Of a DNA stretch of 64,000 nucleotides, positions 1 through 56,943 are shown in pieces; position 1 is the first letter of the stretch; every line of letters begins with the position of its first letter. The position numbers were made by a program, and so were the translations under genes. Origin of the DNA: an uncultured Peptococcaceae bacterium (GTDB lineage Bacteria; Bacillota; Dehalobacteriia; UBA4068; UBA4997); assembly GCA_947625705.1 (NCBI GenBank), contig CANQPG010000003.1, forward strand, positions 1 to 64,000. The letters are read 5' to 3'. The notes below the pieces were generated by a model. It did no database searches and was not told where the DNA came from. It saw nothing but the letters and a program-made list of their open reading frames with translations.

Positions 1-3000
1 GTGACGGTTTGCGTGTCGCCGGTGACCTTGACGCCGTCCCGGTAATACTCGACGGTGTAGGAAATAGCTTTCGTCTGCCCGTCGTCTTTGACGTAATACA
101 CGTTGATGACGCCGCCGTCGGCGATCATGTCCGGGATATCCGCCGCGAGAGTGGTGCATTTATAGCCGATGTACTTGTCGGTGATGTTGATCTTGCTCTT
201 ATCCACGGTCAGGGTATCGGGCTGCAACACCTGCACGGTTTGCCTAAAGGTCTGCGTGTCGCCGGTGACCTTTACGCCGTCCTTGTAATACTCCACGGTG
301 TAGGAGATTTCTTTGGTCTGCCCGTCGTCCACCTCATAATAAAGGTTCAGCACGTTGTCGGCGTCGGTAATGCGCAGGGTTGCCTTATCGGCGTGGCTGA
401 ATGTATATCCGGTGATAGCAACCGCTTCACTTGCGGCGGCAATTTCCGTGCCGTAAGCCTGCGGTTCGCCCGTTTTGGCGGGTTGCAGGACTTTGCCGGT
501 GCCGTTCTCCAGATAGTTGACGGTGTAGGCATACGTGTTCTCGCCATACGATACGTTGCTGTAAACAAGGGTATCCTGCTGGCTGGGTACGCCGATGTCG
601 TGCGTTACGCTGAGGCCGTTTGTGGCCGGCTGGGTCAGCTTGGCTTTTTCTGCCTCCGGTATGCTGGGCGAGGTGACTGCCGCCGTGGCCGTCACGCTTT
701 GCTCATAGCCGAGGATAGTTTCCTCCGCCACGGTATACGTTGTGCCGCGCGGCAGCTCTTTGATGGTGATGATCTCGCCGCCCGCCAGCTTAAGCCCGTT
801 CGTTTCCGTGTTAAAATGCGTGTCGTTTGCCGTCATGCTCGCGATATGATAGCCGTCACCCGCCGCGTCCGCCTCGATGGTGAGCGTGCCGGTCTCTGTC
901 GCCGTGCCGCCGTTGGTGATGGTGTAAGCATATTCGCCCGCAAGCTCCGGCGTCATGTCGATATCGCCGATGGTGTTTCGGGGGCGCTCGACGGAGCCGG
1001 TAACTTCCGGTGCGTCATATGTGAAGCCGATGGAGAAATTGAACGGCTGGCTGGCCTGCCGTGCGGCGGGCGCGTCGCTGACCTGCTTTGTGATGACCAG
1101 ATCGCCCACGGCGGTGCTGGCCACGCGCACGATGGTGCTGCCGCTGAACAGGCCGTTCAAAATCTTATTGCCGAAGCTGGTGTAGCCGTTGGAGGTATCA
1201 AATTTGTCATCTTGTTCGTCACTTTCCAGCGTAGGCAGCGCCGTTTTTGTGCGGATCTCATCATTAATGGCGGCCAGCTTCTCCTCATTCCCGACCGCGT
1301 TTAATTCTTTCAGCAGCTCAGAATAGTGCATACCGGGGTCATAAATGCCGTAATAATTCTGGGTGATCAGATCCCAGTTCCAGCCGCTGGCCGATACATA
1401 ACCGTAGGGGTTTTCCTTATCGTCCAGTGGGTTTGTTTCGCCGAGGATATCGAAGTCATCCTCGACGGTGGAATACTGCATGCGGGCTTCCGTGTCATAT
1501 CTGCGCCATTTGCGCTGCAAGTTATAGTCGTTGGTGTTGACCTGTTCCCAGCTGAGCTTGCCGTCAGTTTCGGTGCCTTTGGCGCGCAGCGCGTAAATAT
1601 CCGTCAGCGTGGTGTCGATCATGCCGGCGGAACCAAAATTGGCCATCGTGCTGACCAGCCTGCCCACGCCCACCAGCACGGAAATACCGTCGCCGTCGCC
1701 TTTGGCCACGCCCTTGTCGGGGTCAATGACCTCGGCGCCCGCGCCGTCCAGCAGGGGTTGGCCCGCATAGGCGTGCACGCCGTTTTCGTCAACGATGACC
1801 TTGACCAGCCGTTGGTTCGGCGCATAGCCGACGGGAGCCTGCGTCTCCTGCAAATAATAGACGCCGGTGGCAAGGCCGTGGAACGCCGTGCCGCCGCCCA
1901 GCGTAACATGCGAGCCCAAAACGCCCTGCTCCAGGTCGCTGGTGTGGTTAGCCTTATACACCGGCTGTGCGCCCGCTTTCAGCGTTAAGGTATCTTCGTC
2001 CACGGCGTCCTGTTTATAAAGCGCAAATTCCGCGTCGCAGATGGTGTTGCCCTGCGCGTCCAGCCGCTGCACCATCAGGCGGTTTTGAATATTCGGCACG
2101 CCGATGGTGGCGCCGAAGTTACGTTGAAAGCCGCTGCCCCTGTGGTCGATGCGGAAAGTCTGGTTGCCGTCCATTTGCTCCGGGTCGTCCGCCGTAGAGA
2201 AATAGAACGTTGTGGTGTATTTGATTTTAGCCAGCTTGGCGTCTAATTCCGCTTGCTGTTCAGCGGTCATCAAGGCCAAGTCTTCGGCGTCATGCTGACC
2301 GTCTTTGTTTAAGTCCTCAATGATATTGCCTTTTTGGTCGGCAATCATAAAATAATAGCTGTCAATTTCGCCGGGCAGGTTGCTGATCTCGGCGTTATAG
2401 CTGCCGGAGGCCGTGGGCTCAAACGGATAGATAAAGCCGTCCGTGCTGCCCTTGTTCCGGCGGGCATATTCGCCAATGGCCGCGCCCAGCGCTTTGGCGT
2501 AATCGTATTCATTCTTTTCCAAATCCAGCTTTTCTATCGTCCAGCCGGTTTCCGGGCTGCCGTAAACGGGCGCCCAGTTCTCCTCAACACCAATCGTCGC
2601 CATCGTGGGCGTTCCCTTGCCGACCCAGGCCAGCACCACGGCGAACAGCCCCACCTTGTTCTCATATTCCTGGTCGCTCAGGTGGATTATAGTAGGCTCG
2701 CGGTCGCGGGGGTCTGGAACGAGCCTGATATCGAAGGATCTGATCTCTTCAGGGGCGGAGACCACGGCCAGCGGCGTGGCGTAAACGCCGTTGTTCCAGC
2801 GGTCGTTAGAGCGCAGGATATAGGTGCCGTTGATGTTTTCCAGACGCAGCGAGGTCGCCTCCGCGTGGCGGTATCCGGCCAGCGCCGCGCTGTGTTTGCC
2901 GGTTTCTTCCGCTTCGCGCAGTTCCAGCAGCAGGGCATTTTCATATTCCAGCCCGCCGGAGGAGATGACTTTATTCACCGTATACTGCTGATAGCTGGTG

Positions 3001-4535
3001 AAAATATCGGCCAGGCTGGCCATTTTATCCGCTTTCGCGCCCATATTTTCGCTGTATCGCAGCGTCAGCATACCGTCCGCGTCGGTTGTGCCGGTGGCCA
3101 CCTTTTCGACGTCTGTAATGTTGGTTTTGTCGGTGTTGGTGTCCCATTTCTCGGTGTCGTTGGTCGGCCTCACCACGCAAAGGTCAAACTGCACGTCCGC
3201 GATCGGATTGCCGTCCTGATCGACCTTGTGAATGTAGGTGGGGGGAATTTCCTCCAGGTTGAATTGCAGGTTCATGTTAGAGCCGCCCGCGCCGCGCTCC
3301 AGGAAGAAAAAGTCCAGCGTGTGATAGGTACCGTCGGCAAATGTCCACTTGGTTTCGCCGCCGTCGGTCGTTTTCTGAAAGATGTGTGTGTTTGCGCCGT
3401 TTCGCACCTTGATGATATTTGCGTTGGGGTCGTCTTTTGTTGTATTCGTATCGCTGACGCTTTTGCCGTCAAAGGTGGAAACGCGAACCCAATATGTCAC
3501 ATTTTCTTCGCCTACTGCATTGATGTATTGCTGCAAAAGGGTGGAGGCGTTATCGTTGTCTGGAGTTTTGCTGGCGTCGGCGTTCAGATAATAGGATATA
3601 TCGCCGCTGGCAAAGTCGATCCTTACTTGGGCGGGGTTGTGGATACCGCCCACGTCGCCCACCAGTATGCCGTCAATGAAGATCCAAACGTCATCGTCGC
3701 CGACAAATTCATAGGTTACGGGGGTTTGGCCGTCCTTGGTCAGGCCGTCCTCCGACTGCACAAACTGCGTCGTCATATGCGCGCCGAAGAAGTGGTTGAT
3801 GTCCTCGCTTTCCTTAACGCCGTTCGGTGCGGTTGTGTTGTTTATAACTGTTCCATCGCTTTTCACATAGCCCTGGCCGTTCTTGTCCAGCGTGTTAAAC
3901 GGAAAGAAGCCCGTGGAGTTTTCGAGCAGGCCATCGGCAAAATCTATCAGTGTGAACGAATTGTCAGGGTTAAGCTGTGCGCCGGTTTTGTTGCTGTCAA
4001 AATAATAATAGCCGGTGTTGTCAACCTGAAACAGGCCGCTTACGTTGTTACGTACGGTTTTGCCAACAACGCTGGTGTCGTCATCAAACAGGTAGGCGAG
4101 GGACTCATTGCCTGCGGTCGTAGTGCCCAAGCCGGTATCCAAGTCCTTTTACAAAACGGGGTAGTTATCCGCGCCCAGCTTGTTTTGCACAATGCCGCGG
4201 AATATAGCGCCGCGGTCTCCTGTCCAGACATTCATGTGATTTTTAGGTTCCGGGCCGGTGTACCAGAATTTCAGCGGGCTGTACTGGTTGATACCTCGGG
4301 TTGCATTAGCGCTATCATAATATTTTAAAATATCGTTAGGTTTGTCCGGGTTCACCCAATAATCGAACAGGTCGATGGTGGTGCCCACTGGCGTCACGCC
4401 GGTAATTGCTTTGGTTTGGGGCGGGTCAGCTTCGTCCGCCGCATAGGCGGTATGTAGGTTGGCCGGCATTTGCCCCAGCACCAGCGCCAATATCAGGCAC
4501 AGGCTTAAAAGACGCTTCAGCTTTTTCATGATCAT
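1..4535 (-). pseudogene. Very large secreted fibro-slime / SpaA-Cna_B-like surface adhesin, 3' part beyond window; one in-frame TAA at 4149-4151
   Basis: Signal peptide MIMKKLKRLLSLCLILALVLGQMPANLHTAYA at 4535. The same minus frame stays open after the TAA to position 1: KDLDTGLGTTTAGNESLAYLFDDD...YEFVGDDDVWIFIDGILVGDVGGIHNPAQV...YTVEYYKDGVKVTGDTQT. The downstream ORF is not in the track, presumably because it runs off the window edge. Confidence 0.85.
3..331 (-). repeat. Two copies of an adhesin repeat (ISYTVEYY[K/R]DGVKVTGDTQT...), period about 240 bp
   Basis: Near-identical DNA around 9-93 and 257-331 (tgcgtgtcgccggtgacct...tacgccgtcc...taatactc.acggtgtagga). Confidence 0.75.
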
Positions 4536-4554: not shown

Positions 4555-5286
4555 TTATTTGGATACGACTTGCTTCAGCGGCATCTGCTGTTCGATCACC
4601 CTCAGGCGGTAGCGCGCCATCTTTTTGGCTTTATAGCGGCCGGTGCAGACCGGGCAGCCGCTTTTGTGTGAGCCCAGCCCCGCCCGCGAATAAACCACCG
4701 TCTGCCAGACGTGGCCGCTGCTGCACTGCCACCAAACCTTTTTGTGGCTGCCGATCGTCACTTGCTCCGGCGTGAGGTCGCCGTTCAGCGTCGGGTGCCA
4801 TTCCGCCGCGATCTTCGGCTCCAGCGTCGCCAGGTCGTTGAACCCGGGCAGCACCTTTTTGTTGGCGCAGTAAGGGCAGCCGCTGCCGCTGACGCGGGAT
4901 TTTACCATCGCCTGCCACTCATGCCCTTTGTCGCATATCCACCAGGCTGCGTAATGGCTGCCCTCCAGCACGTCTTTGGGGGTAACATTGCCATTTTTAG
5001 TGGAGTGCCATTCGGCGGCAAGATCCGGCCGGCGCGACGCCAGATCGCTTTCACCCGGCCAGGGCTTTTTGCCGGTGCAGTAGGGGCAGCCGCTGTCGGC
5101 GCCGGTGCGGTTGAACACAACGGAGTTCCAGGCGTGCCCATGCTCACAGCGCCACCAGACTTTTTTCTTGCTGCCGTAGGAGATCTGTTTTGGCGTGAGT
5201 TCACCGTTAAGCTTTTGGTGCCACTCCTTAAGCAGGTATTGCTGGCCGTTTTCCCGGCAATAGTCATACAAACTTTTCTTCATCAT
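4555..5286 (-). CDS. Treble-clef / zinc-ribbon repeat protein (DUF4379-like), 3 repeats
   Basis: Three repeats of LAAEWHxxxNGxLTPxxVxxGSxxKxWWxCxxGHxWxxxVxxRxxGxGCPxC; 19 bp upstream of the adhesin start on the same strand. Confidence 0.85.
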   Translation of the reverse strand: MMKKSLYDYCRENGQQYLLKEWHQKLNGELTPKQISYGSKKKVWWRCEHGHAWNSVVFNRTGADSGCPYCTGKKPWPGESDLASRRPDLAAEWHSTKNGNVTPKDVLEGSHYAAWWICDKGHEWQAMVKSRVSGSGCPYCANKKVLPGFNDLATLEPKIAAEWHPTLNGDLTPEQVTIGSHKKVWWQCSSGHVWQTVVYSRAGLGSHKSGCPVCTGRYKAKKMARYRLRVIEQQMPLKQVVSK

Positions 5287-5349: not shown

Positions 5350-5367
5350 ACAAAATACACATTTTGT
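5350..5367. repeat. Left recombinase-core-like site ACAAAATACACATTTTGT
   Basis: Dyad GACAAAAT-ACAC-ATTTTGTC with an asymmetric 4-nt centre; inverted partner at 5613-5630, 17/18 identical. Confidence 0.75.
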
Positions 5368-5415
5368 CATGTCAATACCGCGCACAAGTTCTGCACGGCT
5401 ACATAACTTATTAAA

Positions 5416-5444
5416 ATTGTAGCACATTTTTATCCGAAGCGCAA
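5416..5444 (-). promoter_or_regulatory. Predicted promoter TTGCGC-N17-(TGc)TACAAT inside the invertible segment, reading toward the zinc-ribbon/adhesin genes
   Basis: Minus strand: TTGCGC (5444-5439), 17 nt, TACAAT (5421-5416), extended -10 TGc. Same hexamers and spacing as the predicted recA promoter at 56915-56943. Confidence 0.6.
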
Positions 5445-5473
5445 TAATCTTATTGCTTTTTGAACGCGAAAAT

Positions 5474-5507
5474 CCAAGCCGCTAAAAATGTGTTTTTGGC
5501 AGCTTGG
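5474..5507. other. Imperfect 15-bp stem-loop CCAAGCCGCTAAAAA-TGTG-TTTTTGGCAGCTTGG
   Basis: 13/15 complementary arms with a 4-nt loop. Confidence 0.6.
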
Positions 5508-5515
5508 TTATCTAC

Positions 5516-5555
5516 GGTCTTTTTGCCCATATGGGTGGCAAAAAGACCTTTTTTT
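5516..5555 (+). terminator. Rho-independent terminator within the invertible segment
   Basis: GGTCTTTTTGCC / GGCAAAAAGACC perfect 12-bp stem followed by T7. Confidence 0.85.
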
Positions 5556-5612
5556 GTCTGCTTAAAGACCCTAGACATACTTATCCGCCAGGTCGCATAT
5601 ACAGGAACAGTC

Positions 5613-5630
5613 ACAAAATGTGTATTCTGT
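5613..5630. repeat. Right recombinase-core-like site ACAAAATGTGTATTCTGT, inverted relative to left site
   Basis: Reverse complement ACAGAATACACATTTTGT matches 5350-5367 at 17/18 positions; ends 1 bp before the recombinase stop codon. Confidence 0.75.
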
Positions 5631-5631
5631 T

Positions 5632-6483
5632 TTATGACACTAACCCCAGACGGTCAAGCTGTCGTCGGTGCTCTGCGCCGGATGTCAGAAGATAGATGCG
5701 CGTGGTTTCAATGCTGGAATGACCAAGCACGTCGGCCAGCCGCACGATATCCTTGCAGGCACGGTAAAACGCCGTGGCGAACAGGTGCCGCAGGTTATGG
5801 GGGAACACCTTGCTCGGCTCGACGCCGGCGTATTTGCACAGCGCTTTCATCTCCGCCCAAATTTGGCGGCGGGAAAGCGGTTTGCCGCCTCTGGTGAGAA
5901 AGATCTCGCCGGAAGCGGTTTTTTGTTTCTTGGCGTATTTCAACAGCTTGCGGCAAAGCTTCGCGGGGAGTATTATCGTGCGTATCTTGCCCTTAAGCGA
6001 GATTTCCGTGCGCCCCCGCCGCTCTGCTTCCACTGTGATATACTTTAGCTCGGAGACGCGGATCCCCGTGGCGCAGATGGTCTCCATCAACAGACCAAGA
6101 CGAGCCTGCCCGCGTGCTTCGGCGGCGGCGACCAGCGCGTCATAATCGCTCCGCGTCAGCTCGCGGCGGGGCTCCCGAAACAGCCGCCGCTGCACTTTTA
6201 AGAATCTGGCGCGTAAGTCCTCCCGCCCGATAAAGCGGAACAGGCCGTTCAACGCGGCCAGCATACCGTTAATGGTGACGGGCGCGTAATTTTTGGCCAG
6301 CAAGACATCTTTCCACTCGTTCACGGCCTCCCGGGTCACGTTTTGCCCCGCCAGCCAGGCGGCAAAAGCGCGGATATCCCGCAGGTATTTTGTCACCGTG
6401 CCGGGGGCGCGCTGCTCGGCTTGAAGTTCTCCGGCATAGGCGGCAATGGCCGCTTCGGTCAGTATAAATTCGTTCATGTCCAA
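5632..6483 (-). CDS. Tyrosine recombinase / phage-integrase family site-specific recombinase
   Basis: N-terminal SAM-like domain (APGTVTKYLRDIRAFAAWL), catalytic motifs ATGIRVSEL...HNLRHLFATAFY...LGHSSIETTRIYL. Confidence 0.93.
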   Translation of the reverse strand: MDMNEFILTEAAIAAYAGELQAEQRAPGTVTKYLRDIRAFAAWLAGQNVTREAVNEWKDVLLAKNYAPVTINGMLAALNGLFRFIGREDLRARFLKVQRRLFREPRRELTRSDYDALVAAAEARGQARLGLLMETICATGIRVSELKYITVEAERRGRTEISLKGKIRTIILPAKLCRKLLKYAKKQKTASGEIFLTRGGKPLSRRQIWAEMKALCKYAGVEPSKVFPHNLRHLFATAFYRACKDIVRLADVLGHSSIETTRIYLLTSGAEHRRQLDRLGLVS

Positions 6484-56914: not shown

Positions 56915-56943
56915 TTGCGCTTTGGCGGGAAATGTTGTACAAT
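56915..56943 (+). promoter_or_regulatory. recA promoter TTGCGC-N17-TACAAT
   Basis: Read directly upstream of LexA box and recA. Confidence 0.7.

Follow-up and report, generated by a model that had tools for sequence, protein, structure and literature searches.

A predicted promoter-inversion cassette beside a tyrosine recombinase gene, and helical phasing of site spacing among its relatives

In the window, the 64,000-nt stretch of DNA analyzed here, a tyrosine recombinase gene (5632..6477, minus strand) adjoins a short segment bounded by inverted repeats, which raises the question of whether this segment is flipped by its neighbor and, if so, what such a flip would switch. The reading that we favor, at a probability of about 0.9, is that the locus is a self-contained promoter-inversion (phase-variation) cassette, phased by torsion and flipped by the adjacent recombinase. 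The genes that would be switched lie to the left on the minus strand, the first being a DUF4379 gene encoding three treble-clef zinc finger domains (4555..5286), followed by a gene for a large adhesin-like surface protein (1..4535) that extends beyond the window. The adhesin frame is open over 4535 nt except for a single in-frame TAA (4149-4151, minus strand, codon 129), which may leave the downstream product broken.

The left recombination site (5350..5367, plus strand) reads ACAAAAT-ACAC-ATTTTGT, with quasi-palindromic half-sites around an asymmetric 4-nt spacer. The right site (5613..5630, plus strand), ACAAAAT-GTGT-ATTCTGT, is an inverted copy of it, its spacer GTGT being the reverse complement of ACAC. 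These 18-nt arms are complementary at 17 of 18 positions, as in invertons with short segments, and between them lie the 245 nt of the invertible segment (5368..5612). Related loci were collected by retaining 80 of 309 relatives found in genome contigs and adding further loci from same-genus and whole-genome searches, and removal of identical segments left 118 distinct loci with a paired-site segment, mostly in Oscillospiraceae-type genomes. The 18-nt sites have the form ACAAAAT-N4-ATTTTGT, and both sites in the window are close to consensus. The pair finder behind the 118-locus set itself demands reverse-complementary spacers, so that only a scan blind to N4 counts as evidence on this point, and in that scan each of the 54 loci had paired sites whose spacers were full reverse complements of one another. 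A barcode role for the 4-nt spacer, separating cassettes within a genome, was rejected, as pairs of cassettes sharing a spacer show no avoidance (7 of 111, where 3 would be expected).

The recombinase begins with ATG and matches PF02899 as well as PF00589, the latter with an E value of 6e-25, which places its catalytic domain in the Phage_integrase family. It is full length, and alignment with XerA/XerD reveals ATGIR, HNLRH, LGHSS, and RIY motifs, so that the R, HxxR, H, and Y signatures are kept. It is the probable invertase of the segment. The same integrase fold could also belong to a mobile-element integrase whose repeats are attachment sites, with no expression switch, and the copy in Dysosmobacter, 75% identical to the window cassette, suggests that the cassette seems to have moved between distant lineages, as a mobile element might. 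That explanation is nevertheless highly improbable, since the sites are inverted and in most loci enclose only ~190–275 nt directly behind the recombinase stop codon, since a conserved promoter and hairpin (described below) lie inside the segment, and since the best match in annotated phage records is only 49% identical. A phage origin was rejected on this last figure from the annotated phage records.

Evidence that inversion has taken place comes from the genome itself, in which the recombinase is present as three copies, in the window cassette (C3) and in cassettes C12 and C9. The flanks of C3 and C12 align in the same direction at 80–82% identity right up to both sites, whereas the segment aligns only in reverse (73%), with the change of direction falling at the two sites; a segment reversed between collinear flanks means that inversion has happened. 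By the direction of the predicted promoter, C3 is read as ON and C12 as OFF. The earlier note had claimed an invertible segment with an outward promoter that is ON in this assembly and that, once flipped, would aim its promoter antisense into the 3′ end of the recombinase gene, and the reversed C12 paralog together with ~70 relatives bears out the first part, while the second arrangement is found in C12 and in 53 of 72 relatives. The paralogs, and the terminator-like hairpins, TATGTA element, and helical phasing described below, come in addition to that note. Both orientations therefore occur as in an inverton, at the level of paralogs in one genome and of relatives.

Whether the window segment still flips is a separate matter. 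The promoter could be real and the segment frozen, with relic sites and an orientation fixed in this strain; there is one assembly of the locus, and the adhesin stop and a single-site cassette (C9) could signal decay. This seems very unlikely, however, when the recombinase is full length with its catalytic motifs, the sites are near consensus, and C12 is flipped, and continued inversion by the adjacent recombinase remains the preferred reading. In C9 (L008, 8923-8940) one site joins the recombinase-side and gene-side flanks and the segment is missing, an arrangement that simple inversion does not explain; contig C41 probably continues this cassette. The adhesin of the C12 paralog likewise shifts frame early, and its frame change and the stop in the window could reflect decay, an assembly error, or separate genes.

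The predicted promoter lies at 5416..5444 on the minus strand, where 5444..5416 reads TTGCGC TTCGGATAAAAATGTGC TACAAT, with a 17-nt spacer and TGC forming an extended -10, confirming the position, hexamers, and spacing that had been described from the sequence beforehand. It reads leftward to the DUF4379 gene and the adhesin, with a predicted transcription start at ~5408-5410 (minus strand). A generic sigma-70 scan of the window did not detect it, as TTGCGC is identical to TTGACA at only three of six positions. The comparison drawn in the earlier note with a candidate recA promoter (56915..56943, plus strand) holds in part. The hexamers and spacing are exactly equal, and the ORF 3′ of the match encodes RecA (GPESSGKTT motif), but there TTG precedes TACAAT, so that the extended -10 is absent. 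The pattern TTGCGC-N17-TACAAT occurs twice in the window, against 0.06 expected from shuffles. Genome-wide, with one mismatch allowed, the TTGCGC/TACAAT pattern gave eight matches, against five in the backward control, indicating that the hexamers alone are near chance; the recA match was consequently downgraded from proof of promoter activity to weak support.

The prediction instead draws mainly on conservation across the family. In a subset of 64 loci, TTG-N17-TGnTAnnnT was present in 45 segments, compared with a mean of 0.8 and a maximum of 5 in 200 shuffles, and the spacing between TTG and TGnTAnnnT peaked at exactly 17. Among the 118 related segments, 72 carry the pattern on one strand only, and this strict pattern is absent from the other 46. 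The segment thus appears, from its own sequence and from this conservation, to carry a promoter as invertons do, and the promoter would be expected to fire. Where orientation could be assigned in this way (72 loci, L030-L214), 19 promoters face the downstream gene (ON) and 53 face the recombinase (OFF), an imbalance that may be biological, through antisense transcription into the recombinase or a cost of the ON state, or may come from sampling. On the recombinase tree, orientation changed 17 times, against a shuffled mean of 17.0, and this lack of signal is as expected if the segment flips often. The downstream ORFs include surface-type proteins with DUF4379, List-Bact repeat, BspA-type LRR, VWA, SLH, and GLUG matches (one Pfam scan, 72 ORFs). 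An integrase N-terminal domain was matched by 8 of the 72, for example L032:3939-4400, and some loci may therefore carry a second recombinase after the switch.

Two hairpins share the segment with the promoter. Hairpin B (5474..5507, minus strand) lies upstream of the promoter, and most family segments have a hairpin upstream of the -35 with A-rich and T-rich flanks. In 46 aligned sequences, 83.1% of cells over the eight pairs of its stem are paired, compared with 66.8% when shuffled and at most 51% when slid, and double changes number 65 against 24 in shuffles, so that the stem covaries. Although the T tract of the window copy is weak (ATTTT), the family pattern points to hairpin B as a probable bidirectional terminator or insulator of the promoter. 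The stronger of the two in the window is hairpin A with its T7 tract (5516..5555, plus strand; -19.3 kcal/mol, z -4.5), which resembles an intrinsic terminator, reads rightward in the assembled orientation, and after inversion would stand in the way of read-through coming from the recombinase gene. Such read-through would probably be blocked by the hairpins in either orientation. A further element, TATGTA (5400..5405, minus strand), lies 10 nt after the -10. No other hexamer is as enriched in the family; it is present in 47 of 72 segments, where 2.9 would be expected, its commonest position being 10–11 nt after the -10.

The cassette is proposed to work as follows. The adjacent tyrosine recombinase would bring together both 18-nt sites of a single DNA molecule and flip the 245-nt segment. 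In the assembled ON orientation the promoter would drive the DUF4379 gene and the adhesin, and in the OFF orientation it would point antisense into the 3′ end of the recombinase gene while the terminator-like hairpins would halt recombinase-gene read-through before the adhesin. Pairing would require the short loop between the sites to close without over- or under-twist, so that selection, it is proposed, holds the site distance at whole helical turns.

Across the family this distance is indeed strongly quantized in helical turns. In the window it is 263 bp, or 25.05 turns of 10.5 bp, and among related loci the distances cluster near 220, 231, 241, 252, 262, 273, and 283 bp. The best period over 5–20 bp is 10.50 bp (n = 112, R = 0.658, phase -0.026 turn; bootstrap 10.35–10.70), and none of 2000 sets in the jitter null was as strong; 100 of 111 loci deviate from a whole turn by no more than 2.6 bp, where ~55 would be expected to do so. 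The period search was exploratory, with the jitter null, clustering, and nearest-relative contrasts serving as controls. The phasing survives clustering of the recombinases at 65–95% identity (p from 1.6e-6 to 1.4e-21), these Rayleigh p-values allowing only partly for shared ancestry.

Shared ancestry could in principle account for the pattern if a few founding lengths had been copied often, as the predominance of 241 and 250–253 bp and a phylogenetic signal in turn number (49 changes, against 67 shuffled) would suggest. Such an accident of descent is unlikely, given that phasing persists at 65% clustering (n = 32, p = 1.6e-6), that distances stay near whole turns even as turn number changes 49 times or more along the tree, and that differences in length between nearest relatives (disjoint contrasts, n = 22), a test that allows for shared ancestry, are themselves phased (p = 0.002). 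The cuts used in this last test, at a 45-bp difference and at segments <320 bp, were set after a weaker earlier result had been seen, in which differences >45 bp were kept and the mean cosine was 0.23, a value equaled or exceeded by 797 of 20000 jittered sets.

As for the cause of the phasing, we favor torsion of the loop. Torsion may not act alone, in that an accessory protein, or RNA polymerase, may have to be bound on the same face of the helix as the sites, which we consider a tentative possibility, in line with the phasing of the promoter relative to each of the two sites (R ~0.7) and with the fixed place of TATGTA after the -10. Against this, rare single-turn indels flanking the promoter would phase it automatically if selection acts on total length only.

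Promoter switches of this general type are well known. The fimS switch of Escherichia coli uses two recombinases and the helper proteins IHF and Lrp, whereas the window shows one adjacent recombinase, and the site sequence differs. The fimS switch (FimB/FimE, type 1 fimbriae) has a promoter segment of 314 bp (PMC9993118) and is like the window cassette in that a short promoter segment flipped by a tyrosine recombinase switches a surface adhesin. The flagellar and cwpV switches of Clostridioides difficile (RecV), as described in the excerpts available, share with the window a host from the Clostridia, short inverted repeats, a downstream surface gene, and a tyrosine recombinase. In these RecV switches control comes after transcription start, by way of Rho or of a terminator, and the sites on which RecV acts are several and distant, whereas in the window the promoter itself would flip and the recombinase is adjacent.

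Closer in appearance is inverton group 139 (invertase group 35) of the hCom2 study, which, in the portions available, comprises 33 invertons, 32 of them from the class Clostridia and nearly all beside a tyrosine-type recombinase, with reads reported in both orientations (PMC11892184). By the coordinates printed there, examples from Intestinimonas butyriciproducens and Clostridium sp. D5 measure 241 and 231 bp from repeat to repeat (PMC11892184), which is 22.95 and 22.0 turns, whole turns as in the family of the window. The likeness is one of architecture and spacing (~230–241 bp), and the passages available make no mention of insulating hairpins, TATGTA, or phasing (PMC11892184). A literature search covering mostly titles and the openings of abstracts found no description of helical phasing of invertons and no link between DUF4379 and phase variation. 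The switch itself is of a known kind, an inverton, and what is unusual is the family-wide spacing rule.

On a broader scale, it is fairly likely that these cassettes are widespread and horizontally spread, that selection keeps their spacing at whole turns, and that the OFF state may stabilize itself through antisense transcription into the recombinase gene. More than 100 natural variants from many genomes, with a clean 10.5-bp periodicity of site spacing, allow natural variation to be used directly to test how helical phase limits short-loop recombination, a question for which designed DNA is the usual material, and whole-turn spacing offers a simple guide to such switches in genomes yet to be read. 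The family also singles out a number of surface proteins of gut bacteria that are probably phase-variable and, if the proposed mechanism is true, would record in natural sequences what DNA looping costs in torsion inside living gut bacteria.
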